Positions 5,609 through 30,331 of a DNA stretch of 64,000 bases are shown one piece after another. The stretch comes from Phycisphaerales bacterium (lineage in GTDB: Bacteria > Planctomycetota > Phycisphaerae > Phycisphaerales > UBA5793). Position 1 is the stretch's first letter. Each line of letters opens with the position of its first letter. The stretch lies in the NCBI GenBank assembly GCA_020852515.1, contig JADZAS010000011.1, forward strand, positions 62,001 through 126,000. Reading direction: 5' to 3'. The notes beneath the pieces were generated by a model. It searched no databases. It was not told the origin of the DNA and was given only the letters and a program-made list of their open reading frames with translations. Made by a program: the position numbers and the translations under genes.

Positions 5609-6970
5609 ATGAAGATCGCGCTGCTGGGGCGACATTTTTCGGGGACCGTCGGCAAAGCGCATCGCGTCGATCTCGATCACCCGTTCATCTGCGAGCGGCT
5701 GGCGCGCAGCGCGGCGGTGCGATTGTGGGTCGACGGCGCGGAAGTTTCGCAGCCCACCGGCTCGCTTGATGAGGTCGTTACACTCGGCGAGGGCCGGTGC
5801 TTCATCGACGGGGCCAAACTGTGGATCTCCATCCCCGGCGATCGCCAGCCGCGGCAGGAGTCGATCGATCTCGTCGTCGATGTGCCGCTCACGACTGATC
5901 GCGACATGCACAGCACGGCGAGGCCGCTGCTCATCCTCGGGCCGCAGCGCTGCGGCAGCACGGCTCTGCAATGGGCGCTCGATCACTGCACGCCCTACAA
6001 AGCCCCGCGCGACCTGCGCGGCTATCTCGACAACACGCTCGAAGGCTTCTACCTCACCCAACTGCTCAAGTCGTTTCTCAACCACCCCCACTACTCGCCC
6101 TTCGGCAGCGATGCGGCGGGGCACTTCTGGGGCACCGGGCTCTTTCAGGATTGCGGCTTGAGCGGCGAGATGCTCGCACGCCTCGCGCAGCACATCGACT
6201 GGGCGTACTCGACGACGAGCGGCACACTGGGGACCTGGACAGACAAGTGCCCGGGATGGGACAGCGTGGCGATCGCGCCGCTGTTTTCCATGCTCTTCCC
6301 GCACGGGCACGTGTTCTTCCTCAGCCGCGACCCGGTCGGCAATGTGCTCTCCATCATGCGGCTGCGCGGCGAGTTGCCGGATGACCTGCCCGAGGAGCGG
6401 CGGCCGGCGGCGGTGGCGCAGGCGTGCGCCGGCTGGACGGTGGCGCACTACCTCTGGCGGCGCTACGTGCGGCCGATCATGCCCCGCGGCGCAGCGACGG
6501 AGATTTCGTTCGCGAAGTTTCGCAGACGCGAACCCGAGGTGCTCGCGGCGATCCAGGCCGCGGCGAATCTGAGCGATGAAGAAATTGAAGCGGTGTCGGC
6601 CGATCTGAATGAGCCGCAGGTGCCCACGCACGCCGTCGAGCGGCAGCGGTTGGACGACTGGGTCGTTCCCGCAATCTGGCACCTCTGCGGCAGCGAAGCA
6701 AAGCGATGGGGATACGAGAAGCCGGAGTCGGCCGAGGTCGCGGCCGATGCGCCGTCGCCGTGGCGCCTGCCGGTGCGCAATGCGTTTCTGCCAACGGTGT
6801 TTCACGCACTCTCGTGGCTGGGATTGACAACTGACGCGGTGAATGCGGCGGCGATGCACTTCGTGCCCGACTGGAAGCCGGTCAGCGAGCCGCAGATGCA
6901 CGCCGAGGCCGGCGCGGGCTCGCTGCTTGCCATCTCGCTGCGAGAGAGAGAGAGTTCAAGACGAGAATGA
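5609..6970 (+). CDS. Sulfotransferase A with N-terminal cluster module
   Basis: This 453-aa protein is a PAPS-dependent sulfotransferase-like enzyme. The 5'-phosphosulfate loop is LILGPQRCGSTAL (about residues 108-120) and the 3'-phosphate motif is FFLSRDPVGNVLS near 235. Residues about 20-90 hold a diverged form of the cluster module (LWVDGAEV, GEGRCFI, LWISIPGDRQPRQ), seen better in the proteins at 8367, 10816, 12324 and 25545. The start chosen is ATG 5609 with GGATCGGA just upstream; a longer frame from 5516 would run through the inverted repeat and is not credible. Its stop overlaps the next gene's ATG (ATGA), so the two sulfotransferases are probably translated together. Likely substrate, by context, is an exported glycan; acceptor unknown. 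Confidence 0.83.
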   Translation: MKIALLGRHFSGTVGKAHRVDLDHPFICERLARSAAVRLWVDGAEVSQPTGSLDEVVTLGEGRCFIDGAKLWISIPGDRQPRQESIDLVVDVPLTTDRDMHSTARPLLILGPQRCGSTALQWALDHCTPYKAPRDLRGYLDNTLEGFYLTQLLKSFLNHPHYSPFGSDAAGHFWGTGLFQDCGLSGEMLARLAQHIDWAYSTTSGTLGTWTDKCPGWDSVAIAPLFSMLFPHGHVFFLSRDPVGNVLSIMRLRGELPDDLPEERRPAAVAQACAGWTVAHYLWRRYVRPIMPRGAATEISFAKFRRREPEVLAAIQAAANLSDEEIEAVSADLNEPQVPTHAVERQRLDDWVVPAIWHLCGSEAKRWGYEKPESAEVAADAPSPWRLPVRNAFLPTVFHALSWLGLTTDAVNAAAMHFVPDWKPVSEPQMHAEAGAGSLLAISLRERESSRRE

Positions 6971-8367
6971 ACGAGACCGGACCCATCCTGCTGACACTGA
7001 CGCCGCGGCACTTTCATAAGAGATTGGGTCACGGGCACGGGGTGCCCCTGCGACATTCGGCAGTGCTCGACCGCATCAATGGTCGATCGAAGATCACTCT
7101 CTGGCTCGATGGACGACCGCTCAACCGGTCTGGCGCCTCGGTTCAGGACGTTGCCGAGCACGGCGACGGCCGCTGCCACCTCAATCTTCCCTACGAAAAC
7201 GAAAGTATTCCGCGCGAGCAGTGGTGCGGCATGCTCTGGATATCGCTGCCGGGGAATTCGGAACCTCGCGAGTACGGCAGAGCGATCGTCGTGGAACTCG
7301 GCGAAGCGCCGCGCGAGTCAGTGTCGGCGGCGGCTGGAGGGCCGCTTCTTATCGCCGGAGCGCAGCGCACTGGAACGACGGCGCTCCTCACCGCGCTCGA
7401 CACGGCGACACCGCTGCGAGCCCCGCAGGACGCGTGCATGCATCGCTGGCACACTCTCGAGGGATTTTTCACGATTCAGAGCGCCCTTCACTGGTTGACA
7501 CATCCATTTGTCTCCGCGCTCGGCGGCGACGGCGAGCAGCGCCGCTTCCGCACGGGGATGTTTGACGACAGTTCGTTCGCCAGCGCCATGCTCGACTCAC
7601 TCGCAGAGCACATCGACCGAAGCGGTCGCATGCTCGCGGGGGGCGCTCCGCGGTGGGTCGAGAAGTGTCCGGGCTGGGAAACTTCGTCAATCGGACCGCT
7701 CTTCGCGGCCCTGTTTCCGCGCGGCCGCGTCATCTACATGACGCGCGATCCAGTGTCGTGCACGATGTCCATTGCACGCCTCGAGGGCTCGCTTCCGCGG
7801 GCGCTGGATAGCGAAGCGGCGTTGCGGTCGATCGTCCGAAACAGCAGCGTCTGGGTGGTGTCGCATCTCATCTGGCGCCGATACGGCCGACCGCGACTGG
7901 GATCGGACCGCATGCTCGAGGTGCCGTTCCATCTCTTCCAGCGCGAGCCGGCGGAAGTAGTGCCGTCGATTGCCCGGCTCCTTCAACTCGATGAGAAACA
8001 AGGCGATGCCCTGCTTGCGGCGCTGGGACACATTCCAACGCCAAGGCACCCGATCCGCGTCGAAGAAATCGATCCGGCTGTGCCGTCGCTTATCCGCCGA
8101 CTGTGCCGCAATGAGGCGGCGCGCTGGGGATACGAGATGGGCGAGTGCGAGCCGGTTAATGCGCCGATGCTCGAGCAGGTCTGCAGCCTCTACCGGGGCC
8201 AATTGTCGCGCATGCTCGATTGGTACCAGTTGCGATCCGATGTGGCGCAGGCATTCGTCGAAGCGAATGTGCAAGGCGCAGCAGATGGTCTTGCACCTTC
8301 CGATGAACCGCCACTGCCCGCGCCCGGGCCGCTGCTGGCGGCCCGGTTGGCTCGTGAGCCGGCGTGA
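6967..8367 (+). CDS. Sulfotransferase B with N-terminal cluster module
   Basis: Paralogue of the preceding gene, 466 aa, starting at the ATG that overlaps its stop. The PAPS loop is LLIAGAQRTGTTAL (about 127-140) and the second motif is VIYMTRDPVSCTMS. Both proteins share WVEKCPGWETSSIGPLF-like and RW.YE blocks. Residues about 25-110 are the module in weakened form: ITLWLDGRPL, HGDGRCHLNL, LWISLPGNSEPRE. Two paralogous enzymes side by side suggest sulfation at two positions or on two sugars of one glycan; this is inference. The next gene begins at or within four bases of its stop. Confidence 0.83.
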   Translation: MNETGPILLTLTPRHFHKRLGHGHGVPLRHSAVLDRINGRSKITLWLDGRPLNRSGASVQDVAEHGDGRCHLNLPYENESIPREQWCGMLWISLPGNSEPREYGRAIVVELGEAPRESVSAAAGGPLLIAGAQRTGTTALLTALDTATPLRAPQDACMHRWHTLEGFFTIQSALHWLTHPFVSALGGDGEQRRFRTGMFDDSSFASAMLDSLAEHIDRSGRMLAGGAPRWVEKCPGWETSSIGPLFAALFPRGRVIYMTRDPVSCTMSIARLEGSLPRALDSEAALRSIVRNSSVWVVSHLIWRRYGRPRLGSDRMLEVPFHLFQREPAEVVPSIARLLQLDEKQGDALLAALGHIPTPRHPIRVEEIDPAVPSLIRRLCRNEAARWGYEMGECEPVNAPMLEQVCSLYRGQLSRMLDWYQLRSDVAQAFVEANVQGAADGLAPSDEPPLPAPGPLLAARLAREPA

Positions 8368-9734
8368 TGCGGGGCCGGCGCGCGGCGGCCGCGACTACGA
8401 TGTTGGCGATGCAGAAACCCGGCCGGGTCATTGTGAACACACCTCTGGCGCGCCTCGTGGCGCTGCTGCTGGCCCTGCTGGCTGCGCGGCAAGGCGCGGC
8501 GCGCCAGGGCGATGCGCCGCCGGGGGCAAACGCCGTCATCATCGAGCCGGGCGACGTGCGGCCGCGCGCGGGGCTGGCGTACACCATCAACCTGCCGCTG
8601 AGCGCCAACGAAGGAGACTACAGCGACGCCCTGCGGCGATCGAGCTGGGTGCTGCTGGAAGATTCCACCGCGCTCGGGCCAGCGCACGGGACGCACAAAG
8701 ACGTCGAAACCCTCGGCCGAGGCCGCTACTCGCACTGGAAGAACGCCCTGATCTTCTCGAGCTCCGACGGCAGCGACCCGCGCACCAACGGCAGGCACTA
8801 CGTGCTCATCAAGACCGCCGACGAGACGGGCCGGCGCGTGCACTTCTGTGCCCCGGGCGCCATGCTCATGGTGCGCCAGGGCGACCGGCTCTGGTGGCCG
8901 GATGGCGAGGCCTATGAGATGTTCGTGCCGCGCTGGGGAGCGCGCCGGCCGGAGGTGAACCCGCAGCGACCTCGCATTGAGGGCTCGATGCTCGTGTTCG
9001 ACGCGCCGGGCGAATACGGCCTGCGTGCGGCGGGCCGGGTGGCGCGCGTGCTCGTGCTCGACGATGACGCCGCAGTGCGGCCCCGGCAGATCGTCGGCTT
9101 CATCGCCGCCAACACCACCGGCGGGCGCGAGGATGAACTCACGGCCGAGGAGAGCGAAGCCAACTGGCCGCTGGTGCTGCGCCACCACTTCGACCGGCTG
9201 TTTCAGAGCGATGCAAGTCTTGACGTCGCGTGCGGCCGTGCGGCGCTGCTGGCCGAACTGCTCTGCCGGGCCGCAGGATTCGAGACGCGCTACTGCGGCT
9301 GGATCGGCGATGACCCGCGCTACGCGGCCCACGTGGGGCTCGAGATCTACAACGCGCAGCGCGGCCAGTGGGAGTACTACGACCCGCACTTCGGCGTCGC
9401 CGCCCGCAACCGCGCTGATGGACTGGGCCTGGCGCTGAGTCTGCAGCGGCTCTACGCCGGACGCGAAGCGGATGCGGTTGCCGTGCTGGTGGACAAGATG
9501 ACACCCGAGGGCCTCGCCGAGCAGTGGGCGTCGTACGGGGCCGCCGTGCAACTGTGGGGCGACCGATCGCGGAGCACCTCGACGGTGCTGCTCATGAATG
9601 ATGCCGTGCCGCCGACGATCGAGCCGGATGCATTTGCCGAGACGGAGTTCCTCTCGGCGTCGCGCGACCTGGCGACGTTTCGCGCCCGGTTCTACGGCCC
9701 CGCGATCGCGGCCGGCGGAGAGGACCAGCGCTGA
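8367..9734 (+). CDS. Transglutaminase-like protein with cluster module, probably exported
   Basis: About 455 aa. A hydrophobic stretch LARLVALLLALLA near residues 27-39 looks like a signal peptide or anchor. Residues about 68-150 carry a full copy of the module (LGRGRYSHW, FSSSDGSDPRTNGRHY). The C-terminal half fits the transglutaminase-like cysteine fold: Cys in LDVACGRAALLAELLCRAAG (about 289), His in AAHVGLEIYN (about 322) and Asp in WEYYDPHFG (about 339) match the Cys-His-Asp triad. The start could be GTG 8364, ATG 8367 (overlapping the previous stop), ATG 8400 or ATG 8409; the last two give a more ordinary signal peptide. Function may be peptide or amide cleavage or cross-linking outside the cytoplasm; no substrate can be named. 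Confidence 0.8.
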   Translation: MRGRRAAAATTMLAMQKPGRVIVNTPLARLVALLLALLAARQGAARQGDAPPGANAVIIEPGDVRPRAGLAYTINLPLSANEGDYSDALRRSSWVLLEDSTALGPAHGTHKDVETLGRGRYSHWKNALIFSSSDGSDPRTNGRHYVLIKTADETGRRVHFCAPGAMLMVRQGDRLWWPDGEAYEMFVPRWGARRPEVNPQRPRIEGSMLVFDAPGEYGLRAAGRVARVLVLDDDAAVRPRQIVGFIAANTTGGREDELTAEESEANWPLVLRHHFDRLFQSDASLDVACGRAALLAELLCRAAGFETRYCGWIGDDPRYAAHVGLEIYNAQRGQWEYYDPHFGVAARNRADGLGLALSLQRLYAGREADAVAVLVDKMTPEGLAEQWASYGAAVQLWGDRSRSTSTVLLMNDAVPPTIEPDAFAETEFLSASRDLATFRARFYGPAIAAGGEDQR

Positions 9735-9772
9735 GCCGCCCCGACCCGGCCGCGGCTAGGATCAGGCCATCA

Positions 9773-10684
9773 ATGACCGCCACCGATGTTTCGAGCCATT
9801 CCGTGCTGTCGTATTGCTTTGACGTGCTCAAGTCGATCGTGCTGCTGCCGCTGACCATCGCGGCCGTATTGCGCGACATTGCGCGCGACGTGCGGCGCTA
9901 CCGGCGGCTGCTGCTGGAGATGACCTGGCGCGAACTGGCCGACCCCTTTGCCGGGTCGTTCCTCGGCGTGACGTGGTCGGTGCTGCATCCGCTGCTGATG
10001 ATGGCGGTGTACGCGACGGTGTTCGCGATTATCTTTCGTGGATCGCCGGAAGCGAATGCGCACGGGTTCGACTTCACCATCCAGATGATCTCGGCGTATC
10101 TGCCGTGGATGGCGATGACCAACGCCGTGCTGGCCGGGTGCAGCGCCGTGCGCAACAAGGCGAACCTGGTCAAGCAGGTGGTCTTTCCGCTCGAGGTGCT
10201 GCCGATCAAGACGGTGCTCGCCAACCTCGTGCCCCAGGTGATCGGCACGATCTTCCTGTTCATCTACAGCCTGATCCGCTTCCACGAGGTGCCGTGGACG
10301 TGGGCGCTGTGGCCGGTGATGTTCGGCCTGGAGGTGCTGCTGCTGTGCGGGCTGGTGATGATGGTCTCGTCGATCGGGGTGTACCTGCGCGACCTCAAGG
10401 ATGTGCTGCAGGTGGCGTTCATGGTGCTCTTCTACGCCACCCCCGTACTCTACACCGAGAAGACGCTGCACCCGGACAACCCGACGGTGCTCAAGGTGAT
10501 CGACGGCCTGCTGACGTACAACCCGATGAGCCTGATCGTCCGGCCGTTCCGCGACATCTGCTTCTTCGGAGAGATCAGATACGGCTGGACCTGGCTGCTC
10601 TATCCAATCGTGGCGGTGCTGCTGCTGGTGATCGGGTACCGCACCTTCCGCAAGCTCAAGCCGCACTTCGGCAACGCGCTGTGA
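9773..10684 (+). CDS. wzm: ABC-2 type polysaccharide export permease
   Basis: This 303-aa protein is the membrane part of an ABC exporter of the Wzm/TagG/KpsM group, which moves lipid-linked polysaccharide across the inner membrane. It has a cytoplasmic N-terminus, the family block LLLEMTWRELADPFAGSFLG leading into WSVLHPLLMMAVYATVFAIIF, and about six hydrophobic segments. The typical GVYLRDLKDVLQVAFMVLFY loop and a conserved YNPMS near the C-terminus are visible. The start is ATG 9773. The matching ATPase is the product of 22598-24145, some 12 kb downstream in the same direction; in most such loci the two genes are adjacent. Confidence 0.93.
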   Translation: MTATDVSSHSVLSYCFDVLKSIVLLPLTIAAVLRDIARDVRRYRRLLLEMTWRELADPFAGSFLGVTWSVLHPLLMMAVYATVFAIIFRGSPEANAHGFDFTIQMISAYLPWMAMTNAVLAGCSAVRNKANLVKQVVFPLEVLPIKTVLANLVPQVIGTIFLFIYSLIRFHEVPWTWALWPVMFGLEVLLLCGLVMMVSSIGVYLRDLKDVLQVAFMVLFYATPVLYTEKTLHPDNPTVLKVIDGLLTYNPMSLIVRPFRDICFFGEIRYGWTWLLYPIVAVLLLVIGYRTFRKLKPHFGNAL

Positions 10685-10815
10685 GGCCTCCTCGCGGGCA
10701 GAGAGGGCCCCGCGCGGCTGATCCCGGCGGAAGCGGCGCTAGTATTAGCTGAATCCTGCCATCGCGGCCGAGGCCGCGCCGGGCCCGCGGCCCAACGATC
10801 CCCGGAGCATTGAAA

Positions 10816-12327
10816 ATGGCCTTTGCCGTCTCCCTTCCTGTGTTCGGCACCAGACCGCAGCAGCCGCTGCGCGTCGAGGCGGCGCAGAAAGAGTCCGGCC
10901 CGGCGATCCGGTCGATGCCCATCGACGCCGCCATGATCCGCCACGCCGGCGGCCACTGCTACAACGTCGATCTGCCGCTCAGCGCATTCGGCCCGGGCGA
11001 GGTCCCGGCCGGGGAGGTGCCCGGCTCGGTCGTGGAAAATGGCCGGCTGCTCGGCCCACCGGCCCAGTTGCATGATCTCATCCGCCTGCGCGGCGGCGGC
11101 CGTTACAGCCTGTGGAACTCGCAGACCAACAACGCCGTCACGCTGTTCTTCTCGAGCAGCGACAACACCGACCCGCGCAGCAACGGCCGGACCTACGGCG
11201 TCATCAATCAGCCCCTCTCGTTCGCCAACGACTGGAACCACTGGATGGCGCGGGGCTGGAAGAACCACTCGCGCGGGGCGTACTTCCTGCGGCGCGGCGG
11301 CGATCGCATCGCCCCGCCGCTCTACGCCAGCCTCGGCATCACCGATATCTGCAATCTCAAGTGCGGCATCTGCGGCTCGCAGAACATGCTCACGCCCGTC
11401 AACCGGCGGCACATGGATATCGGCATCTTCCGCAAGGTCGCCGACACGCTCTTTCCGCTGCTCGTCACCGTCGAACTCAACAGTCGCGGCGAACCCATGA
11501 TCCACCCGCAGTTCACCGAGATGCAGGAGATCATGCTCGACTACGACATCTTCACCCGCTACCAGACCAACGGCACGCAGTTCGTCGCGCGCAAGTTGGC
11601 GCTGCTGGCCAAGACGCGCGGCGACGTGTCCATCTCCATCGACGCCACGGGTGACCTGTTCGAGTACGCCCGGACCGGCGCCAAGTGGGAGCAGGTGGAC
11701 CAGGGAACGCGCAACCTGATGAAGGTCCGCGACCCGCAGCGACTCGGAGTCGGGCTGTATCCAACCCTCACTGCCAAGACCATCGAAGGCGCTGCGGCAC
11801 TGGTCGACTGGGCCGTGGAAATCGGCGTCGATCGCATCGACTTCCATGTCTACGAACCGATCGAAGCGGGAGTCGAGCGGGCGCCGTCGCAGCAGCAGCT
11901 CGATGCGCTCAAGCAGTACGCTTCGCGCATCGATGGCAAACGCCCGATCCAGATCGCCGTCGAGTTCGAGATCGTCAAGCCGGGGCAGTTGCCGCCCGTC
12001 GATCGGCCGCTGCAGATGCGTTACGAGAACATTCCACGGCCGCTGGGCGCGGCGTCGGCGCATCCGGAGTACACGTGCATGGCGCCGATGCAGAACGTCG
12101 AGATCGACCTCGATGGCTGCGTGTGCGTCTGCTGCCGCACGCAGGATCGAAAACTGGGCAACGCGATGAGCGTGGAGGCGTTCGCCGACTGCTGGTTCGG
12201 CGGCGAGTACGAGGCGATCCGCGCTTCGCTGCGCCGCGACAGCCTCACGCCCCCGATCATCGACACCTGCCGCGGCTGCGTGAAGCACTACACGGCGGGC
12301 AGCGGGATTGTGGAGTTTGGATCGTGA
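10816..12327 (+). CDS. Radical SAM/SPASM enzyme fused to cluster module
   Basis: 503 aa. Residues about 46-130 are a clear copy of the module (GGGRYSLW, FFSSSDNTDPRSNGRTY). A radical SAM core follows, with the cluster-binding CNLKCGIC (C179, C183, C186 in a CxxxCxxC spacing), ELNSRGEPMIHP and SISIDATGDLFEY. The C-terminus has cysteine groups in EYTCMAPMQNVEIDLDG, VCVCCRTQDRKLGN and IDTCRGCVKHY, as in SPASM domains that hold extra iron-sulfur clusters. The start is ATG 10816, with GGAG eight bases upstream; an upstream TTG at 10810 is less likely. Its stop overlaps the next GTG. Reaction unknown; similar enzymes act on sugars or peptides. Confidence 0.86.
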   Translation: MAFAVSLPVFGTRPQQPLRVEAAQKESGPAIRSMPIDAAMIRHAGGHCYNVDLPLSAFGPGEVPAGEVPGSVVENGRLLGPPAQLHDLIRLRGGGRYSLWNSQTNNAVTLFFSSSDNTDPRSNGRTYGVINQPLSFANDWNHWMARGWKNHSRGAYFLRRGGDRIAPPLYASLGITDICNLKCGICGSQNMLTPVNRRHMDIGIFRKVADTLFPLLVTVELNSRGEPMIHPQFTEMQEIMLDYDIFTRYQTNGTQFVARKLALLAKTRGDVSISIDATGDLFEYARTGAKWEQVDQGTRNLMKVRDPQRLGVGLYPTLTAKTIEGAAALVDWAVEIGVDRIDFHVYEPIEAGVERAPSQQQLDALKQYASRIDGKRPIQIAVEFEIVKPGQLPPVDRPLQMRYENIPRPLGAASAHPEYTCMAPMQNVEIDLDGCVCVCCRTQDRKLGNAMSVEAFADCWFGGEYEAIRASLRRDSLTPPIIDTCRGCVKHYTAGSGIVEFGS

Positions 12328-12791
12328 GCAGCGCTTCGGCCACCATCTCAGAACCCGTCGACGGCGCGGCACAGCCCGTCGAGGCGGCGCGACCTGGGTT
12401 CGTGTATTACATCATCGCCGCGGCGGGATGCACGGCGTACAGCATCTGCCAGCTCGCCGCCGGACGCATGGATCCTCAGGTCAATGCCGGCAAGATGGTG
12501 CGCGGGATCTTCAGGCGGCATGTGCGCGGCCGGCTCGAACCGATCCATCATGAGACCGGGCACTGCTACACGTGTTCGGTCCCCAAGGGATTGGTGTCGG
12601 ATGCCGAAGCCGTGTCGCGACTGATCATCTACGAAGACGGCGTGCCCATCGGCCCGGCCCACGCTTCGCACAACGACGTTCGGGCGCACGGCGGCGGGCG
12701 GTATTCGCACTGGAGCGGCTGGCTGTACTTCTCGACGCCGGACAACAGCGATCCGCGAAGTAACGGGCGGCTGTACACATACAGAGACTGA
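12324..12791 (+). CDS. Small membrane-anchored protein consisting mainly of the cluster module
   Basis: 155 aa, starting at GTG 12324, which overlaps the stop of the radical SAM gene (GTGA). A short Pro/Ala-rich head is followed by one hydrophobic segment (FVYYIIAAAGCTAYSICQLA, about 26-45). Residues about 78-155 are the module and nothing else: HCYTC, IIYEDGVPIGPAH, GGGRYSHW, LYFSTPDNSDPRSNGRLY. The protein ends four residues after the last motif, so the module can stand alone. The anchored form suggests that the module works at the membrane, perhaps binding the glycan or docking the larger module-bearing enzymes; that is inference. The longer frame starting at 11685 overlaps the radical SAM gene and is not real upstream of 12324. 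Confidence 0.8.
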   Translation: MSSASATISEPVDGAAQPVEAARPGFVYYIIAAAGCTAYSICQLAAGRMDPQVNAGKMVRGIFRRHVRGRLEPIHHETGHCYTCSVPKGLVSDAEAVSRLIIYEDGVPIGPAHASHNDVRAHGGGRYSHWSGWLYFSTPDNSDPRSNGRLYTYRD

Positions 12792-12839
12792 AGCGGGCTG
12801 TCGCCGGCGACTCGCAAACTGTGGGGGTAAGACACTCGA

Positions 12840-14717: not shown

Positions 14718-14819
14718 GAGCGCGGGCGGCCTGTTCCGGCGAAAGGGCTGTTGACTCATTGCTCGCCGAACCCTTCAATTCGGCGGGGAAACGCGGTTGC
14801 ATCCGCTAAGGAAGCCCAC

Positions 14820-18967: not shown

Positions 18968-18988
18968 ATGCAATCGAAGGATGAGTTG

Positions 18989-21900
18989 ATGTCACAAACC
19001 GCCCCGCGCCTCTCTGGTCAACCTGTGCAGGTCGAAGCGCCGCTCAACGAAGCGGTGCTCGCCGAGGTGCGCTTCGCGCTGGACAACGGCTACGAGTACG
19101 CCAAGACCGTGGCGAACCACCTCGCGCGGCGGATGCATCCGCACCCTGACCTGACGAACCTGGCGATCGCGGAGCTGGGCACGCCGAATCGCTTTGGCCC
19201 GATGCTGGTGTGCCGCGCCTTTGGCGCCAGTGTCGCCGCGATCAACACGCACTTCGTGCCTTGGAACGATGAGGCGCCGGCGTTTCTGCAGGCGCTGGCG
19301 CAAACGGGCCGCGAAGAGTATCCCGAAGCTGACTGGTCCTGGATCGACGAAGTCATCGAAGCCGGTGCCTACGACGGCGCCGGCCTGAATCTGCACCAGG
19401 TTGCGAGCCTCTCCGGCCCGCTGGCGGTCGATGACGCTTCGTTCGACTGCATCGTCAGCAACGCGATTCTCAGCCAGGTCGATCTGCCGGCTCTGATGCG
19501 CGAGCTGGGCCGCATCACGCGGCCGAGCGGCTTTGGCATACACCAGGTCGATTTCCGAGACACCGCTGATTACAGCCGGCCGCTCGAGTTCCTCACCCTC
19601 AGCGAACAGGAGATCGATGCGCAGCGGCAGGCGGGGCGCTGGTCGCGCGGCAACCGGCTGCGGCCGGTCGAAATGCAGCAGGTCTTCCGCAGCATCGGCT
19701 TTCGCGTGGAGCATTTCGGACCCAACATGTTCGCCGACGAGGCGTATCTCAAGTCTCTGCGGCCGCGGCTTGCGCCGCGCTACGCACAACTGACCGACGA
19801 AGACCTCCGGCCCATCAGCGGCCGCTTCTACCTCCGCGCCATCACCGACGCCCAGGTGCGCGAAGACGTGGACTATGCGATTCGAATCGCGCTCGAGTAC
19901 GTCGAACTCATCAGCCGCGAACTTGGGCGCGACGCAGCGGCCATGCCGCTGGCGGATCTGACACTCCTTGAATTCGGTCCGGGGCGGCACTTCGGCACGC
20001 CACTGCTGCTGCACTGCTACGGTGCGAGAGTTGCCGTGCTCGACAAGTACCTCGCGGACTGGGATGAGGTCTACCATCCGCGCTTCTATCGGTTCCTCCG
20101 CGAAGCGCTCGACGAACGGCTGCCGCAGCGCGACTGGTCCGCGGTCGATCGCATCATCGCCGCGGCGGATCACCTCCCCGACATCATCGAACAGGACCGC
20201 ACCGACCTCGCGCACCCGCCCAGCGGCTTCCCTGACGCGTCCTTTGACGTGATCGTGTCCAACGCGGTACTCGAACACGTCGGCGACGTGCCGCAGACGG
20301 CGGCGGAGATGGCCCGGCTCACGAGGCCCGGCGGCATCAACATCCACCAGGTCGATTTCCGCGATCATCGCGATTTCACCCGGCCGCTCGAATTCCTGAC
20401 CATGCCCGACGCGGCTTACCAGAAGCTCTTCGACGAGACGATGAACGGCAACGGCAATCGCGTGCGGCCGCACGCCATGGGCGATGACTTCAGAGCCGTC
20501 GGTTTTGATGTGCTTCGCTTCGACGCCAACATCTGGGCCGAGCCCGGGCACATCGCGGCCGTGCGGCCGCGCCTCCAGTCGCAGTTTGCTGCGCTCAGCG
20601 ACGAGACGCTCGCGGTGGTGAGCGGCCGGTTCTTTCTCCGAAGGCAGGGCGCGCCCATGAATCGCAGCGCGCAGAAGAAGTACGCCGAAACGGATCTCCA
20701 AGAAGACCGCTGGGCCGTCCCCGGCGCCATCGACGAGCATGTGCGCTACGCCATCGTCAACGGCGTCTTCTACGCCTCGGCGATCGCGCGGCAGTTCGGG
20801 CGCGGCGTACTCGCGGGCGCACCGGCCGAGGCGCCAAAGCCCTACGGCGTGCTCTCCGATCTGGGCGGACTGAGTATCCTCGAACTCGGGCCGGGGCCGA
20901 ACTTCGGCTGCATGCTCATCTGCAAAGCGTGCGGCGCGGAGGTCGCGGTGTTCGACAAGTACCTCGCCCAGTGGGATGAGAAATACCACCCGAAGCTCTA
21001 CCGCGCGCTGCTCGAGGCCTGCGAGGCGAGCTTCCCCTATGCCGACTGGTCAGCGCTGCGGCGCATCATCGAACTCGGCCGGCATGACGAGGCAATCATC
21101 CGCAGCGCCTCGGGCGACCTCGCCGAGCCACCCAGCGCCTACGGCGACGGCGCCTTCGACGCGATCGTCTCCAACGCCGTGCTCGAACACATCGGCGATA
21201 CAAACAAGATGGCCGGTGAACTGTCGCGACTGACGCGCGATGGCGGCGTGGGCATTCACCAGGTCGACTTTCGCGACCACGAAAAGCAGAACGAGCCGCT
21301 GACCTTCCTCACCGTGCCTGAGGACGAGTTCGCACAGCGATTCATCAAGTCCCGCAACAGCCAGGGCAACCGCGTGCGGGCTCACGAACTGGCCGACGAC
21401 TTCCGCCAGGCGGGCTTCGCGGTGGAAGCAGTCGAGGCGAACCTGTTCGCCGCCTCCGAACACATCGCCGCGATGCGGCCGCAGCTCATCGAACGCTTCG
21501 CTGCGATGACCGATGAGCAGTTGATGGTGGTCAGCGCACGCCTGTTCGTGCGCAAGCCCGAGGCGGAGGTGGAAGAGCCGGACTCCATCGGCCGCGTTTT
21601 CGCCCAGCCCCGCGCCGATGACGTCGCCCACGCGCGCGATGACGAAGCCGAATTCACCGAGTGCATCAACGACCAGATCGGCTATTGCCTGCGAAATGCG
21701 ATCGACTACGCCTACTGCATCGGCGAGCACTTCGGCCGGTTGACCGGCGGCATCCCCGATTTCACGAAGGTGCGGGTGCTCGAGAACATTCCCGATCTCT
21801 CCGGCCTGAGCGTGCTCGAACTCGGCCCGGGACGCAACTTTGGCAGCATGCTTATCTGCCAGGCGCTGGGCGCGCGCGTCGCCGTGCTCGACAAGTACCT

Positions 21901-22570
21901 CGCGCAGTGGGAGCCGGAGTATCACCCCGCGTTTTACGCGAAACTGATGCAGGTCGGCCGGCAGCGGCTGCCGCGGGCGCGCTGGGACGGGATCGAAGAG
22001 ATTCTCGCGGCGGCACGTCACCCGCGGCGCATCATCTCGCAGCACGGCTGCGATCTGGCCACCCCGCCCAGCGACCTGCCCGACGCCTCGTTCGATGTCA
22101 TCGTCTCCAATGCCACGCTCGAGCACGTCGGCGACACCTATCTCACCGCCTGCGAACTGTCGCGGCTGACCCGGCCGGGCGGGCTCGGCGTCCACCAGGT
22201 GGATTACCGCGATCACCGCGACTTCGACCACCCCTTCGAGTTCCTCAAGTGCAGCGAGGACGAGTACCAGCGCCTGTTCCTCCAGTCGCGCAACGAGAAC
22301 GGCAATCGCGTGCGCTCTCACGAACTGGTCGAGGACTTCGTCAAGGCGGGCTTCGAAGTCGTGCGCGTCGACGAGAATCTCTTCGCCACACCCGCGCAAC
22401 TGGCCGCGGCCCGGCCGCACCTGAACGGTCGCTTTGCCGCGATGACCGATGCCCAGCTGCTCGTGCTCAGCAGCCGCATCTTTGTTCGACGGACCGACCG
22501 GCCAGTTCCGGCCGGGGTGTTGTCGAGGCGAAGTGCGATCGGCTCGTTTGTGAAGCGGTTCGTAAAATGA
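18989..22570 (+). CDS. Protein of four tandem methyltransferase-like modules
   Basis: 1193 aa from ATG 18989 (GAAGGA seven bases upstream; an ATG at 18968 is possible). It has four homologous modules of about 290 residues, starting near residues 15, 287, 574 and 887. Modules 2-4 each have LELGPGRNFG-type SAM loops (EFGPGRHFG, ELGPGPNFG, ELGPGRNFG), VFDKYLAQWDEKYHP, DVIVSNAVLEHVGD and GIHQVDFRDH. Module 1 has AELGTPNRFGPML and INTHFVPWND, so its cofactor loop is altered and it may be inactive. All end in a VSGRFFLRR-like strand. Four methyltransferase units in one chain are unusual; they may act in succession along a repeating glycan or be structural. Confident on fold, not on substrate. Confidence 0.86.
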   Translation: MSQTAPRLSGQPVQVEAPLNEAVLAEVRFALDNGYEYAKTVANHLARRMHPHPDLTNLAIAELGTPNRFGPMLVCRAFGASVAAINTHFVPWNDEAPAFLQALAQTGREEYPEADWSWIDEVIEAGAYDGAGLNLHQVASLSGPLAVDDASFDCIVSNAILSQVDLPALMRELGRITRPSGFGIHQVDFRDTADYSRPLEFLTLSEQEIDAQRQAGRWSRGNRLRPVEMQQVFRSIGFRVEHFGPNMFADEAYLKSLRPRLAPRYAQLTDEDLRPISGRFYLRAITDAQVREDVDYAIRIALEYVELISRELGRDAAAMPLADLTLLEFGPGRHFGTPLLLHCYGARVAVLDKYLADWDEVYHPRFYRFLREALDERLPQRDWSAVDRIIAAADHLPDIIEQDRTDLAHPPSGFPDASFDVIVSNAVLEHVGDVPQTAAEMARLTRPGGINIHQVDFRDHRDFTRPLEFLTMPDAAYQKLFDETMNGNGNRVRPHAMGDDFRAVGFDVLRFDANIWAEPGHIAAVRPRLQSQFAALSDETLAVVSGRFFLRRQGAPMNRSAQKKYAETDLQEDRWAVPGAIDEHVRYAIVNGVFYASAIARQFGRGVLAGAPAEAPKPYGVLSDLGGLSILELGPGPNFGCMLICKACGAEVAVFDKYLAQWDEKYHPKLYRALLEACEASFPYADWSALRRIIELGRHDEAIIRSASGDLAEPPSAYGDGAFDAIVSNAVLEHIGDTNKMAGELSRLTRDGGVGIHQVDFRDHEKQNEPLTFLTVPEDEFAQRFIKSRNSQGNRVRAHELADDFRQAGFAVEAVEANLFAASEHIAAMRPQLIERFAAMTDEQLMVVSARLFVRKPEAEVEEPDSIGRVFAQPRADDVAHARDDEAEFTECINDQIGYCLRNAIDYAYCIGEHFGRLTGGIPDFTKVRVLENIPDLSGLSVLELGPGRNFGSMLICQALGARVAVLDKYLAQWEPEYHPAFYAKLMQVGRQRLPRARWDGIEEILAAARHPRRIISQHGCDLATPPSDLPDASFDVIVSNATLEHVGDTYLTACELSRLTRPGGLGVHQVDYRDHRDFDHPFEFLKCSEDEYQRLFLQSRNENGNRVRSHELVEDFVKAGFEVVRVDENLFATPAQLAAARPHLNGRFAAMTDAQLLVLSSRIFVRRTDRPVPAGVLSRRSAIGSFVKRFVK

Positions 22571-22597
22571 TGAACCGGATCCCGGCACAAGGCCGCC

Positions 22598-24145
22598 ATG
22601 ACTGAACTGCTGACCACCACAACCTCGCGGCCCATTGAAGTGGCGCCTCCGACGACTGAAGGCCGGCCAGCCGAAGCCGTCGAGGCGGTGCGCGCCGCCG
22701 CCCGAGCCGTGGCGTCAAAGAGCGAGCCGGCGATCCGCGTCTCGAACCTTTCCAAGCTCTACAAGATCTACCGCAAGCCCTCCCTGATCCTCAAGGAGAT
22801 GCTGCTGCGCAAGCCCATGTATCAGCCGCGCTGGGCGCTGCGGGACGTGTCGTTCGAAGTCGGCCGGGGCGAACTCGTCGGCGTGGTCGGCGCCAATGGC
22901 GCCGGCAAGAGCACGCTGCTGCGCATCCTCGCCGGGACGCTCGATCACACGGAAGGCTCGTTTCACATCGCCGGGCAGTTGCGGGCCATTCTGCAACTGG
23001 GCACCGGCTTTCATGATGAGTACACGGGCCGCGAGAACATCTACATGGGCGGCTACTGCCTCGGCTACAGCAAGGCGGAAATCCGCGAAAGCGAAGAATG
23101 GATCATCGACTTCTCGGGACTGCGCCGCGTCATCGACCATCCGTTCCGCACGTATTCGAGCGGCATGAAGTCGCGCCTCACGTTCGCCGTCACCTTCTGC
23201 CGCAAGCCGGACATTCTCATCGTCGACGAAGCGCTGGCGACGGGCGATCTCGCGTTTCAGCAGAAGTGCACGAACCGGATCATCGACCTGTGCAGCGGCG
23301 GCGCCACGGCGCTGGTCGTTTCGCACAGCATGTTCTTCATCGAGACACTCTGCTCGCGCTCGCTGTACCTGCGCGAGGGCGAACTCGTGGCGGATGGGCC
23401 GAGCCGCGAGATCACCCAGATGTACGAGAAGCAGCTGCTCAGTGAATTCGCGCTCGAACAGGAGAGATCAAAGCGTCGCGAGCCAGCCTCGAGCGCTGCA
23501 AGCCGCCTCGAAGAACCCGCCTTCCCGCTCGACCGCCCGGCGCCGGATCGGGTTGTGCCCGCCGTCGGAGCGGAACTCGATTCTGAGAAGGACGACCCGA
23601 CCTATCCACCGCTGCCCGCTGACATCCAGCGACTGCTCGATGACCCGGAAGACGTCTGCCCCGCAATTGCGCACCTCGAACTGGTGCGGCTGGTGCGTCT
23701 GCGCCTGCTCGACGGCGACGGCCGGGAAAAGGACCGCTTCCGCACGGGCGAGCCGATGGCGGTGGAAATCACCGTGGACAGCCGCGTCCGCAAGGACGGC
23801 ATTGCGATCGGCGTTCAGATCTTCAACGAAGCGGACATCCACATCATCACCTCGACGAACCTGACGCAACTGAATGAACGGGGTAACCCGAGTCCGCAGC
23901 CGCTCAACATCCGCCGTGGCGTGCAGACCTTCCGCGTCGAGTTCCCGCGGCTGTTTCTGTGCGACGGCAAATACCACATCGGCGTGGGGATCGCGCCCAA
24001 GGCCAAGCACTTCACGCCGGCTGATCAGTTGCTTCGGCTGTGGCGCGTGAAATCATTCGGCTTCTACCGTGAAGACCTTCCGTTCAAGCAGATCTATGAC
24101 CCGCCGTCGCGATGGCAGCGCCTGTGCAATGATCGCCGCGGCTGA
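22598..24145 (+). CDS. wzt: Polysaccharide ABC exporter ATPase with C-terminal substrate domain
   Basis: 515 aa. The ATPase domain has Walker A GANGAGKSTLLRILAG (about 97-112), the signature YSSGMKSRLTFA and Walker B ILIVDEAL. The order and the AILQLGTGFHDEYTGRENIY block are typical of Wzt/TagH-type exporters. Residues about 360-515 form a second beta-rich domain (LRLLDGDGREKDRFRTGEPM... FGFYREDLPF) matching the Wzt C-terminal domain, which in characterised systems binds the modified end of the glycan chain. It pairs with the permease at 9773-10684. A chain-end recognition domain fits the methyltransferases around it, which could supply a terminal cap. Confidence 0.94.
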   Translation: MTELLTTTTSRPIEVAPPTTEGRPAEAVEAVRAAARAVASKSEPAIRVSNLSKLYKIYRKPSLILKEMLLRKPMYQPRWALRDVSFEVGRGELVGVVGANGAGKSTLLRILAGTLDHTEGSFHIAGQLRAILQLGTGFHDEYTGRENIYMGGYCLGYSKAEIRESEEWIIDFSGLRRVIDHPFRTYSSGMKSRLTFAVTFCRKPDILIVDEALATGDLAFQQKCTNRIIDLCSGGATALVVSHSMFFIETLCSRSLYLREGELVADGPSREITQMYEKQLLSEFALEQERSKRREPASSAASRLEEPAFPLDRPAPDRVVPAVGAELDSEKDDPTYPPLPADIQRLLDDPEDVCPAIAHLELVRLVRLRLLDGDGREKDRFRTGEPMAVEITVDSRVRKDGIAIGVQIFNEADIHIITSTNLTQLNERGNPSPQPLNIRRGVQTFRVEFPRLFLCDGKYHIGVGIAPKAKHFTPADQLLRLWRVKSFGFYREDLPFKQIYDPPSRWQRLCNDRRG

Positions 24146-24187
24146 TGCGCCGCCGCGGACGCGCCGCGGAATGCGGGAGAGTCGCTG

Positions 24188-25561
24188 ATGGGCCTGCCAC
24201 TGCCGGTCGTGCGCCTTCTCGTGGAACACTGCCGCGCCCGGCCGGCGGGCGGCGCCGTGCTCACGCTGGGCGTCCAGGACATCGACGCCACCCCGGCCGA
24301 AGTCGATTCGCTCCTCGCGGGCGCGCCCCTTGCCGATGCGCCGGCGCCGCTTCGACCCGGCGAAGCGATCAAGCCTGATCGCTTCTTCAAGTCCCTTGGC
24401 TTCGGCGAATACCAGTCGCTCGACCTGCTGGGCTCGGAAGGAGCTTCGATCATCCACGACCTGTCGCAGCCGGTGCCGCACCGCTGGCGCAACCACTTCG
24501 AACTGGTCATCGACGGCGGCACGCTCGAGCACGTCTTCGACATCGCGGCCGCGCTGCGGCACATCGTCAGCCTGCTCAAGGTCGGCGGGGCGGCTTTCCA
24601 CGTTTCGCCGCTCTCGGGCTGGGAGAACCACGGGTTCTATTCGATCAATCCGAAACTGCTCGCGCGGTTCTATCGCGCCAACGGATTCGAAGTCGGAAGT
24701 GCGCACGTGGTGCGGCTGACCAAAACCGGTTCGCTCCGCGCGGCGCGCATCGACAATCTCAACGACCTCGATGCGCCGCTTCAGGCCGACTCGCTGCGCG
24801 AATACGCGCTGCTCGTGCTCGCCGCGCGAAAGGCCACCGAGCCGGCGGCTATCATCGCGCCGATCGACACCCACCAGAAGGCCACGCCGGAGGCCGCCGG
24901 CCGGCTGCGCGACGATCTGCTCTACTGGCAGCAGGAGCAGGAATTCACGCGCGTCTGTGAGCAGGGCGAGGCGCTGTGCGGACCGGGGCCGCGCGACCGG
25001 TACTACGTGATCAAGGAGTACCTGACCTCACTGGGCCGGCTCGATGCAGACACCGCCGAGTGCGGCATCTATCGCGGGCTGGGCTCGTGGATCATTCGTC
25101 ATTACGCCCAGCAGTTGCCGCGCTGCGCCGGCTATCGCCATCATCTCTTCGATTCGTTTGAAGGGCTCTCCACGCCCTCATCCGCCGACGCGCCGGCCGC
25201 CGGCGTGCGGCCGTGGCGCGCGGGTGATATGGCGTGGAGTCTCGAGGACGTGAAGCAGACGCTGGGGCGCTGGGATGATCTGACGTTCCATCGAGGCTGG
25301 ATTCCGGAGTGCTTCGACGCCGCGCGCGACGCGAAGTTTTCGTTCGTGCACATCGACGTCGATCTCTACGAGCCGACGCGCGCGGCGCTGGCGTATTTTC
25401 ATCCCCGCCTCGTCACCGGCGGCATCATCGTGATCGATGACGACGGCTTCCTGACATGCCCGGGCGCGCGGCGGGCGGTGGATGAGTTCAGCGCTGCGAC
25501 GGGCCAGCGCCTGGTGCGCTTGCCGACGGGCCAGGCGGTGCTCATCAAGGCTGGGACGTAG
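24188..25561 (+). CDS. Two-domain methyltransferase: class I-like plus TylF/macrocin type
   Basis: 457 aa, ATG 24188 with GGGAGAG upstream. Residues about 60-215 resemble a class I methyltransferase: FELVIDGGTLEHVFDIAAAL, LLKVGGAAFHVSPLSGWENH. The SAM-binding glycine loop is hard to see, so this half may be inactive. Residues about 250-457 match TylF-type O-methyltransferases: TAECGIYRGLGSW, HHLFDSFEGLS, FSFVHIDVDLYEPTRAALAY and GGIIVIDDDG, with acidic residues placed to bind a metal. TylF enzymes methylate sugar hydroxyls. The last 17 bases overlap the convergent gene on the minus strand. Confidence 0.83.
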   Translation: MGLPLPVVRLLVEHCRARPAGGAVLTLGVQDIDATPAEVDSLLAGAPLADAPAPLRPGEAIKPDRFFKSLGFGEYQSLDLLGSEGASIIHDLSQPVPHRWRNHFELVIDGGTLEHVFDIAAALRHIVSLLKVGGAAFHVSPLSGWENHGFYSINPKLLARFYRANGFEVGSAHVVRLTKTGSLRAARIDNLNDLDAPLQADSLREYALLVLAARKATEPAAIIAPIDTHQKATPEAAGRLRDDLLYWQQEQEFTRVCEQGEALCGPGPRDRYYVIKEYLTSLGRLDADTAECGIYRGLGSWIIRHYAQQLPRCAGYRHHLFDSFEGLSTPSSADAPAAGVRPWRAGDMAWSLEDVKQTLGRWDDLTFHRGWIPECFDAARDAKFSFVHIDVDLYEPTRAALAYFHPRLVTGGIIVIDDDGFLTCPGARRAVDEFSAATGQRLVRLPTGQAVLIKAGT

Positions 25562-27497
25562 TGGATTCGTCCTGCTCGGGCCAGCCGGGCAGAAGGCCGC
25601 AGTCTTCCCAATGCGCGTCGAGCGACTGGTGCGGCGCTTCGAAGCGGGCGCGCAGCAGGTGCAGTTCATCGAACCACTTGACGGGAATCCCGTGCGAAGC
25701 GCCGAGCACGTGCGTCGGGCACGAGAGCACGCCGAGGCGCTGCGAACTGCGATGCGGCCGCAGCGCGCGGGCATACTGGAGCAGGCGCGCCAGCGCCGCG
25801 CGCTGTTGCTGCTCGGACTCTGCATTGAGATAGAGATCCACCTCGCGGCCGGCGAGGGTGACGCCCCAGCAATCCATGAAGCCGCTGTAGTTCGGTGGGA
25901 TGGGCTGGAATTGTCCGGTAGCCCGATCGCGATAGCCGAGGCGGTAGGCAACGGTCGGCTCAAAAAGCGTCGAGTGGTTCCAGTTGAAGTGCTGGTAGTT
26001 CGAGAATGGAAAGAAATCGGCGCTGTGCATGGCTGGTGCGACGGCGAGCATCGCGACGAGCCCCGCCGGCCAGGCCATCCACGCGCGCAGCGGCAACTCG
26101 GCGGGCGCTGGCTCAGGCGCCCGGCCCGGCATGAGACGCCGCCATGGAACCAGCACGCTCAAACCGGCAAGCGCCAAAGGCAGAAACAGAATGCCGCTGG
26201 TGAAAAAAATCACCGCGTGGGCGGCGATCATCATGCCCGGCACGATCCAGCGCGCCAGGCGCGACAGCAGCGCCAGCGGCCAGGCCAGTTCGAGTACCAT
26301 GGTCAGCAGCGCTGAGGCTTCACCCAGCCAGGGCCAGCGCAGGAAGAGGTCGCGCAGGCCGCGTGCGATGCCGTCGAGCCAGTCGGGCGGACTCGATCCC
26401 ATCCAGACGATCATCGCCGCGTAGAGCAGTTCAAGGTGCACGACTTTCCACCATGGTCCGTCGGTGATGACCTTCGACCAGCCGCAGATGAAGTACACGG
26501 CCGCGATGTACGCAGCCAGGGCGAATCCCAGTGCCGTGGCGGACGCTGAGACCGATCGGCCCCCGCGGGTGACAGCGCGCCAGGACGCCGGCCAGAGCGC
26601 CGCGATGACCAGCAGCGCTAGCATCGGATCGACGTCGGGAAGCTGACCCCGAAAGCGGTACGCCGTCCATTCGACGAGCAGCGTGACGGCCAGCGCGAGC
26701 CACAGGAGCCACCGGCGCAGGAGCGCCGCGGCCAGGAGTAGCAGCGCCACGGCCGCCGCCTGAACGACGGCGAGTTTCAGGGGGGTACTGAGCAGCGCCG
26801 AGCCGAGCCACTGGACACAGCGATCGAGCGCGCTCGGCGAGAGCGTGTGCAGCGCCGGGCCAATGAGGAGACGGGGAATGGCGGCATAGTCGGCGCTGGC
26901 CTCGCGCCATGCAATGTACACCAGCGCCACGCGCAAGATGCAGCGAAGATCGAATGGAGAGAACTGGATGGCGCCGGCGCTCAGCCGGGACGCGAGGCGC
27001 GGCCGCAGAGAAGCCACCGCGCCGCAAACGAGGTAAACGCCCGCGATCGCCAGAAACGCGGCGAGGTAGTTCGACCACGGCGCATCGCGCATCACGCGCT
27101 GAAGCAGCGAGCGGCGGAGGATAAGAAGGTACGCGCGGCCATTGGCGCGCGGATCGGAATTGTCGGTTGCGGAAAAGTAGAGCGTCGAGCCCCAAGGCGA
27201 GTACCGACCGCCGCCGGCGCTGCGGATGGCGCTGTGCATGTGGTCGATGGTGAGCGGCCGGCCGTCTTCAGTCAGGCTCACGCCGCGGCCGGGAAGCGGG
27301 CGACTGAAACCAAGGTCGGCGGCGCGAGCCGTGTAGCCGTAGCCGCCGTTGGAGCGGATGAGCGTCGGTTCAATCGGTCCCAGACGCAGCGCCGGCGCCG
27401 GCAGCAGGGGCGCGATGATCAGCAGCAGCCCGAGCAGCGCGACCATCCACGCGCGTCGGCGCCCCGGGTGAGTTGATGAGTCAGGTGCGTGGACCAT
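25545..27497 (-). CDS. HTTM-like polytopic membrane protein with cluster module
   Basis: 650 aa. A first transmembrane segment (WMVALLGLLLIIAPLL, about 17-32) is followed by a module copy outside the membrane (about 50-126: SLTEDGRPL, GGGRYSPW, LYFSATDNSDPRANGRAY). Many hydrophobic segments come next, and the YFICGWSKVITDGPWWKV block is typical of HTTM/DoxX-like proteins related to vitamin K-dependent carboxylase. The soluble C-terminal ~140 residues include SADFFPFSNYQHFNWN, seen in related proteins. ATG 27497 is the start. It converges on, and overlaps by 17 bases, the last cluster gene, but the shared module ties it functionally to that cluster. Enzymatic activity is unknown. Confidence 0.8.
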   Translation of the reverse strand: MVHAPDSSTHPGRRRAWMVALLGLLLIIAPLLPAPALRLGPIEPTLIRSNGGYGYTARAADLGFSRPLPGRGVSLTEDGRPLTIDHMHSAIRSAGGGRYSPWGSTLYFSATDNSDPRANGRAYLLILRRSLLQRVMRDAPWSNYLAAFLAIAGVYLVCGAVASLRPRLASRLSAGAIQFSPFDLRCILRVALVYIAWREASADYAAIPRLLIGPALHTLSPSALDRCVQWLGSALLSTPLKLAVVQAAAVALLLLAAALLRRWLLWLALAVTLLVEWTAYRFRGQLPDVDPMLALLVIAALWPASWRAVTRGGRSVSASATALGFALAAYIAAVYFICGWSKVITDGPWWKVVHLELLYAAMIVWMGSSPPDWLDGIARGLRDLFLRWPWLGEASALLTMVLELAWPLALLSRLARWIVPGMMIAAHAVIFFTSGILFLPLALAGLSVLVPWRRLMPGRAPEPAPAELPLRAWMAWPAGLVAMLAVAPAMHSADFFPFSNYQHFNWNHSTLFEPTVAYRLGYRDRATGQFQPIPPNYSGFMDCWGVTLAGREVDLYLNAESEQQQRAALARLLQYARALRPHRSSQRLGVLSCPTHVLGASHGIPVKWFDELHLLRARFEAPHQSLDAHWEDCGLLPGWPEQDESTTSQP

Positions 27498-27952: not shown

Positions 27953-27981
27953 TTGACAAGTGCATCCGCATCCATCATTGT
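27953..27981 (+). promoter_or_regulatory. Candidate housekeeping promoter for the beta-helix gene
   Basis: A perfect TTGACA at 27953-27958 is followed after 17 bases by CATTGT, a weak -10 element, about 87 bases before the ATG at 28068. The -35 box is exact and the spacing is right, but the -10 matches only partly. Confidence 0.35.
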
Positions 27982-28067
27982 GTACGGATGGATTCTCGGT
28001 CCGGATAGCACATCCGGCGAGGCACACCGCAAGGCCGGGCACAGCGGCCACGACAGGAGGCACTCCA

Positions 28068-30260: not shown

Positions 30261-30331
30261 CGTGGATCGTCAACAGCTCAAGAGTGGTCTGAGGGCGGCC
30301 AGGCACAGCGGCCAGAATGGGAGTACGCATC

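Follow-up and report, generated by a model that had tools for sequence, protein, structure and literature searches.

A protein module of about 90 residues is shared by six different proteins encoded in one compact gene cluster of a Phycisphaerales bacterium (Planctomycetota; assembly GCA_020852515.1, contig JADZAS010000011.1, positions 62,001 to 126,000 of the forward strand; this 64,000-nucleotide stretch is referred to as the window). The same module recurs in other bacterial phyla, on viral contigs and in giant viruses, either joined to unrelated enzymes or standing alone, and it carries a signature of residues retained in every partner class. On balance, and with moderate confidence, we favor interpreting it as a beta-rich substrate-recognition domain for a cell-surface glycan, similar in kind to carbohydrate-binding modules (CBMs), with a putative binding function.

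The module and its predicted fold

The initial annotation of this region had described a module of about 75 residues in six proteins, and all six segments were found where it had placed them. The length had to be extended to about 90 residues (88-95; the enlarged profile has 90 positions), because two short N-terminal strands (..E.G..Y...L..) also belong to the module. After these strands, the consensus reads S.L.L.EDG..LGPAH..H.DIR..G.GRYSHW...LYFS.SDNSDPR.NGR.Y. Four strong copies, in the proteins at 8367, 10816, 12324 and 25545 (minus strand), were matched in the organism's own genome by a four-sequence profile at E 1.3e-45 to 1.2e-38. This profile also reached the copy in the sulfotransferase at 6967 (ST2) at E 8.8e-4, and the copy in the sulfotransferase-like protein at 5609 (ST1) was recovered with the enlarged profile at residues 47-114 of a 484-residue open reading frame (ORF). 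The six proteins are as follows.

5609..6970, plus strand: sulfotransferase-like protein ST1 (PF13469 at E 8.7e-5, below cut-off) with a diverged N-terminal module at about residues 8-93 (5630-5887), supported by hhalign and a fold model.
6967..8367, plus strand: sulfotransferase ST2 (PF13469, E 6.8e-13) with a diverged N-terminal module, profile match 6997-7293 (E 8.8e-4), supported by hhalign.
8367..9734, plus strand: transglutaminase-like protein (PF01841 at E 0.0017, below cut-off) with an N-terminal hydrophobic signal or anchor by hydropathy and the module at 8529-8813 (E 1.3e-45).
10816..12327, plus strand: radical SAM/SPASM protein (PF04055, PF13186) with the module at 10906-11208 (E 2.0e-40).
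12324..12791, plus strand: stand-alone module of 155 residues, comprising a hydrophobic segment (supported by the hydropathy of homologues), a basic linker and the module at 12525-12785 (E 1.2e-41); AlphaFold2 predicted local distance difference test (pLDDT) 95.7.
25545..27497, minus strand: multi-pass membrane protein by hydropathy, HTTM-like by eye only and without a Pfam match, with the module at 27120-27389 (E 1.2e-38).

The initial annotation had recognized a diverged form of the module in the two sulfotransferases, and on this point the profile, profile-profile and predicted-fold evidence agree. When sulfotransferase N-termini from this and related genomes were compared using hhalign with a 113-sequence module profile that contained no sulfotransferase copy, they matched at 95.5% probability (E 1.4e-8, 88 columns). 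An AlphaFold2 model of the ST1 N-terminus, built from seven sulfotransferase sequences only, reached a pLDDT of 86.9, and its elements stand in the same order (E E E E H E E E, strands and one helix) and nearly the same places as in the model of the stand-alone copy. The latter (predicted template modelling score, pTM, 0.87) has strands at 7-9, 14-17, 20-24 and 40-43, a helix at 55-61, and strands at 66-69, 72-75 and 90-93. As far as the two models and the alignment reach, the six segments share a predicted fold, which the initial annotation had made a test of its proposal.

Foldseek returned no match below E 0.001 in the PDB for either model. With a structural aligner, the top match of the stand-alone model was BT1002 (5mqp, GH141; Z 8.2, 81 residues, 2.9 Å; next row 5.4), and the ST1 model matched XylC (3vst, GH120; Z 8.2, 85 residues, 2.5 Å), followed by BT1002 at 7.4 and a next row at 5.1; Z values of 7.4-8.2 fall in the aligner's ambiguous range, in which a match may reflect a common arrangement, and the other rows were at about 5. 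The matched stretch of BT1002, residues 107-294, corresponds to its published ancillary beta-sandwich at residues 109-295 (PMC10154630). The beta-helix of XylC is interrupted by an Ig-like sandwich that helps organize the active site (PMC6887791); the matched residues 75-201 are consistent with this sandwich, for which the text of that paper gives no residue numbers. BT1002 acts on the pectin rhamnogalacturonan II, and both top matches are domains of glycan enzymes. It is suggestive that two models from separate alignments point to the same kind of domain. Common ancestry with the GH141/GH120 sandwich is not established, because the Z values are ambiguous and an hhalign comparison of the module profile with four GH141_M sequences was negative (probability 0.3%); despite the fold resemblance, membership in the GH141_M family was rejected on this comparison. 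For the GH120 insert, a member search of 40 genomes was uninformative, as its control gave no match either.

Known domains do not account for the module. Pfam gave no match in the module region of the window proteins and their partners, NCBIfam gave none for the module, and searches of PDB sequences with profiles of 4 or 113 sequences returned no match, only an FHA protein at E 0.87. The profile search proposed in the initial annotation accordingly found no already described domain with a known role that covers the module. In the literature searched, no paper contained the motif string, and none on the topics of Wzt, FkbM and pectin binding described the module.

Sequence identity between copies averages about 37%, whether the copies come from the same genome, share a partner across clades or sit on different partners. 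Recent local duplication was rejected, since same-genome copies (37%) are no closer than copies in other phyla (37%), and the module sequence itself shows no internal duplication. E39, H51, G58, G60, W65, S72, D75, S/T77, D78, P79, N82, G83, R84 and Y86 (alignment numbering) are 90-100% conserved in every partner class. This signature is kept equally by biosynthetic proteins predicted to be cytosolic and by secreted lyases and transglutaminases, which makes calcium binding behind the D/N-rich loop unlikely; H48 and H64 are less conserved in predicted cytosolic copies. ST2 lacks E39, H51, D75, D78, N82 and Y86, and the ST1 copy appears similarly depleted in the alignment. Because the predicted fold survives in the sulfotransferase copies despite these losses, the lost positions probably serve function rather than folding.

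The placement of the copies relative to the membrane was judged from hydropathy. The 8367 protein has a hydrophobic N-terminal segment ahead of the module, and in the 25545 protein the module lies between hydrophobic segments 1 and 2, with arginines ahead of segment 1; both modules are therefore probably located outside the cytoplasm. In the stand-alone copies of two related loci (L012, L013), a strongly basic flank follows the hydrophobic segment, which suggests a cytosolic module. Some labels of the initial annotation needed adjustment: the transglutaminase fold of the 8367 protein stays below the Transglut_core cut-off there (19.1 of 23 bits) but exceeds it in relatives, the membrane anchor of the 155-residue copy is weakly hydrophobic in the window but clear in other stand-alone copies, and the HTTM label of the 25545 protein received no support from the Pfam scan.

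Distribution, partners and neighborhoods

The module is not confined to one Wzm/Wzt locus: the four-sequence profile found two further copies on other contigs of the same genome (C15 and C25), and many occur in other phyla. A 156-residue frame holds the C15 copy, which is a stand-alone one preceded by a hydrophobic N-terminus (G000:C15:31426-31683; L005, L158). The C25 copy forms the C-terminus of a 456-residue protein (G000:C25:159803-160063; L006, L159) that appears SGNH/AlgX-like by eye, with no match in Pfam.

A single scan of a bacterial genome collection yielded 171 module-encoding stretches. The partner census covers the best 80 of these 171 matches, from one motif-based scan that favors copies with the DNSDPR-NG motif. 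For related loci, genes were called with a simple script, whose output includes some shadow frames. Lineages among the best 80 include Planctomycetota, Armatimonadota, Zipacnadia, Verrucomicrobiota with Lentisphaera relatives, Bacteroidota (Pedobacter, Arcticibacter), Alphaproteobacteria, Deltaproteobacteria, Myxococcales and Acidimicrobiales, besides others. The distribution is patchy, with the module present in 13 of 294 sampled Planctomycetota genomes and in 3 of 200 genomes of the phylum containing the Magnetospirillum genome.

Spread by plasmids was rejected as an explanation: only one plasmid record carries the module and no record in the phage record collection does, though 13 phage-like IMG/VR contigs (L177-L189) encode it. 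Fusions on these contigs involve a methyltransferase (L178-L182) or Acyl_transf_3 (L189), and small stand-alone copies lie behind a hydrophobic segment; on the contigs checked, endolysin, tail or virion structural genes lie on the strand opposite the module. A fold search of predicted viral proteins (BFVD) additionally identified five proteins of the giant viruses Hyperionvirus and Harvfovirus (A0A3G5AEI9, A0A3G5AAL9, A0A3G5A2W3, A0A3G5ADE5 and A0A3G5A4X5; E 7.5e-10 to 3.5e-8, 32-48% identity). According to their database names alone, four of the five are an amidotransferase, a methyltransferase, a radical SAM protein and a galacturonosyltransferase-like protein, and the fifth is uncharacterized; these are the same kinds of enzyme that the module is joined to in bacterial loci.

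To the extent that their families could be identified with Pfam, the partners are nearly all polysaccharide enzymes. They include GT4 glycosyltransferases, FkbM and class I methyltransferases, radical SAM/SPASM and B12-radical SAM proteins, and PhyH. Pectate lyase (PL1) is represented by one similarity cluster of 20 proteins of the Pedobacter type, of which two were scanned; PcRGLX rhamnogalacturonan lyase, PL10-type pectic lyase, sulfatase, BNR and CBM35/PKD occur as well. AlgX-like, Transglut_core and Wzt proteins also carry the module, as does a GDSL lipase, and more members were found of the PcRGLX, sulfatase, radical SAM and transglutaminase groups. In a Wzt homologue of Thermoanaerobaculia (L052:155-2122), the module (374-460) lies between the ATPase and Wzt_C (508-646), just ahead of the latter, and PF14524 (Wzt_C) does not match it. 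Another locus (L162) encodes a fusion of Asn_synthase, two modules and GT4, and several large multi-pass membrane proteins without a Pfam match have an N-terminal anchor followed by the module. Its position is variable (N-terminal, internal, C-terminal or tandem), with 3-4 tandem copies in some proteins; one radical SAM/SPASM protein of Asticcacaulis (L027:5368-7836) has four, one of them degenerate.

Genomes fall into two sorts, those with a single copy, typically on a secreted enzyme, and those with multi-copy loci in which different enzymes carry the module. A homologue of the asparagine-synthase-like amidotransferase of the window lies close by in seven lineages with multi-copy loci (the window clade, L014/L154, L150, L148-149, L152, L161 and L162). 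These lineages also have, in varying combinations, homologues of the GT4, methyltransferase, radical SAM and transglutaminase genes of the window.

In the window, the cluster spans about 5.6-27.5 kb, and the module-bearing genes are interspersed with the following genes.

9773..10684, plus strand: Wzm-type ABC-2 permease without the module (PF01061, E 2.2e-10).
12840..14717, plus strand: asparagine-synthase-like glutamine amidotransferase (PF00733, E 1.4e-76).
14751..16940, plus strand: class I methyltransferase with a long C-terminal extension, without the module (PF08241, E 9.5e-22).
16847..18967, plus strand: GT4 glycosyltransferase, without the module in the window (PF00534, E 1.8e-36).
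18968..22570, plus strand: four tandem methyltransferase domains (PF13489, four stretches), without the module in the window.
22598..24145, plus strand: Wzt ATPase with Wzt_C (PF00005, PF14524), without the module.
24188..25561, plus strand: TylF-type methyltransferase without the module (PF05711, E 9.6e-17).

Several of these families carry the module elsewhere. GT4 homologues have it in L150, L161 and L162, and the 18968-22570 product, a 1200-residue chain of four tandem domains, has single-domain homologues in other phyla (L148, L149, L150 and L152) that bear the module instead. Several adjacent genes of the cluster overlap by a few bases, and the first part is thus probably a single operon; the GTG start of the stand-alone copy at 12324 overlaps the stop codon of the preceding gene (GTGA). 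Further downstream, the genes scanned encode ordinary proteins (DNA polymerase III alpha, EngA and flagellins). At 27960-32443, adjacent paralogous proteins are 52% identical, and their N-terminal part recurs at 87% in a 96-residue frame; a duplicated secreted repeat protein may be represented here.

Proposed glycan recognition and its alternatives

The initial annotation had proposed that the module recognizes a common partner, most simply the glycan. This proposal fits the wider census well, which includes polysaccharide enzymes across phyla, a Wzt ATPase and secreted pectin-type lyases. Glycan recognition accounts for partners that variously build, export or degrade, the occurrence on both sides of the membrane, the single-copy genomes and the stand-alone copies, and is therefore our preferred reading. 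The module would hold enzymes on a cell-surface polysaccharide while it is built, decorated, exported or cut. In the window, the cytosolic proteins (the radical SAM protein and the small stand-alone copy, probably membrane-anchored) would grip the glycan exported by Wzm/Wzt, and the envelope proteins (the transglutaminase-like protein and the multi-pass 25545 protein) would grip the same glycan. The two sulfotransferases, with the predicted fold kept and most signature residues gone, probably bind the glycan differently or through the catalytic domain alone.

The weakest step concerns the ligand. Our favored guess is that it is probably an acidic, uronic-acid-rich glycan, because the lyase partners are of the pectin type and the asparagine-synthase-like amidotransferase recurs beside the module. 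Such amidotransferases in some O-antigen clusters amidate uronic acids; a literature search on this amidation found nothing.

Several observations weigh against glycan recognition as set out here. The compartments are deduced from hydropathy and family names, the fold matches reach a level (Z 7.4-8.2) at which a common arrangement may be all that is shared, and the profile comparison with GH141_M was negative. The idea of uronic acids comes from partner names alone, and the transglutaminase-like domain, the most widespread secreted partner, is itself no known glycan enzyme.

Among the alternatives, the initial annotation had already raised docking of the enzymes into a complex. In this reading, the module would work in the manner of a dockerin and assemble the enzymes of a locus by binding a common scaffold protein. 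Single loci with several copies on different enzymes, and proteins with 3-4 tandem copies, are as this would predict. However, docking accounts only for multi-copy loci: many genomes have a lone copy, frequently borne by a secreted lyase or a transglutaminase-like protein, leaving no set of partners to assemble, and one locus can hold copies predicted to lie on opposite sides of the membrane. The signature is moreover identical in all phyla, whereas docking pairs usually drift together. We consequently regard docking as unlikely. A slightly poorer candidate is a structural or regulatory appendage, a rigid cap that shapes the adjacent active site without a ligand of its own, like the inserted sandwich of GH120. 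The predicted fold does resemble the inserted sandwiches of XylC and BT1002, the former of which helps organize its active site, but stand-alone copies in several bacterial lineages and on phage contigs have no enzyme to cap, the position of the module varies, and the partner folds are unrelated. It is very improbable that the module is instead a target tag, modified or glycosylated by enzymes such as the radical SAM or transglutaminase-like ones. In the same loci, a peptide-modifying kind of radical SAM/SPASM enzyme does adjoin a stand-alone copy, but radical SAM enzymes carry the module themselves, as do many secreted enzymes in genomes with just one copy, and the module has no known modified residue.

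A broader extension of glycan recognition is more speculative, and we put it forward only tentatively. The module may read a single glycan feature that is widely shared and conserved in its chemistry and, like a general address label, direct enzymes to it both inside and outside the bacterial envelope; the same toolkit of amidotransferase, methyltransferase, radical SAM protein and glycosyltransferase, each with the module, may have been acquired by giant viruses, and partly by phages, for making or modifying surface glycans.

If the module binds a glycan, one probe would serve to detect an unrecognized class of surface polysaccharide in Planctomycetota, Armatimonadota, Proteobacteria and Bacteroidota as well as in phages and giant viruses. 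A further implication would be that intracellular polymer-tailoring enzymes employ CBM-like tethers, a device usually associated with secreted glycan-degrading enzymes. The profile by itself allows many unnamed proteins to be annotated as glycan-related, and the sulfotransferase copies, having lost the signature while keeping the predicted fold, offer a natural control for mapping the putative binding site.

Comparison with known systems

Like dockerins and cohesins, the module is one small unit common to many enzymes. It differs from dockerins in lacking duplicated calcium-binding loops and in being found in single-copy genomes; no dockerin or cohesin appeared among the Pfam hits of the window and partner proteins, a cohesin-like partner outside these not having been searched for. 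In O-antigen ABC transporters, which belong to a pathway of the same kind, the exported glycan is recognized by the beta domain Wzt_C (PF14524). In the L052 protein, Wzt_C stands side by side with the module as a separate, non-overlapping domain.

The best fold matches are the sandwiches of GH141 (GH141_M, PF21231; BT1002, 5mqp) and GH120 (XylC, 3vst), which align over 81-94 residues at Z 7.4-8.2, compared with about 5 for other structures. Those sandwiches sit inside one beta-helix chain of a glycosidase, whereas the module is terminal, internal or alone, appended to unrelated folds mostly of other families, and shows no profile-level sequence similarity to GH141_M.

CBMs of carbohydrate-active enzymes, such as those binding pectin or alginate, are likewise small autonomous beta-rich domains at either end of an enzyme, sometimes in tandem, and are likewise joined to pectate and rhamnogalacturonan lyases. 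The module is predicted to be a discrete, independently folding domain (pLDDT 95.7, with stand-alone copies in several lineages), and it is appended to carbohydrate-active enzymes, including PL1, PcRGLX, PL10-type, GT4 and sulfatase partners. Its sequence resembles no CBM family that is represented in Pfam or has a structure in the PDB. Beyond this lack of a Pfam or PDB sequence match, the module differs from CBMs in that it is also found on predicted cytosolic biosynthetic enzymes, on an ABC export ATPase and on membrane proteins.

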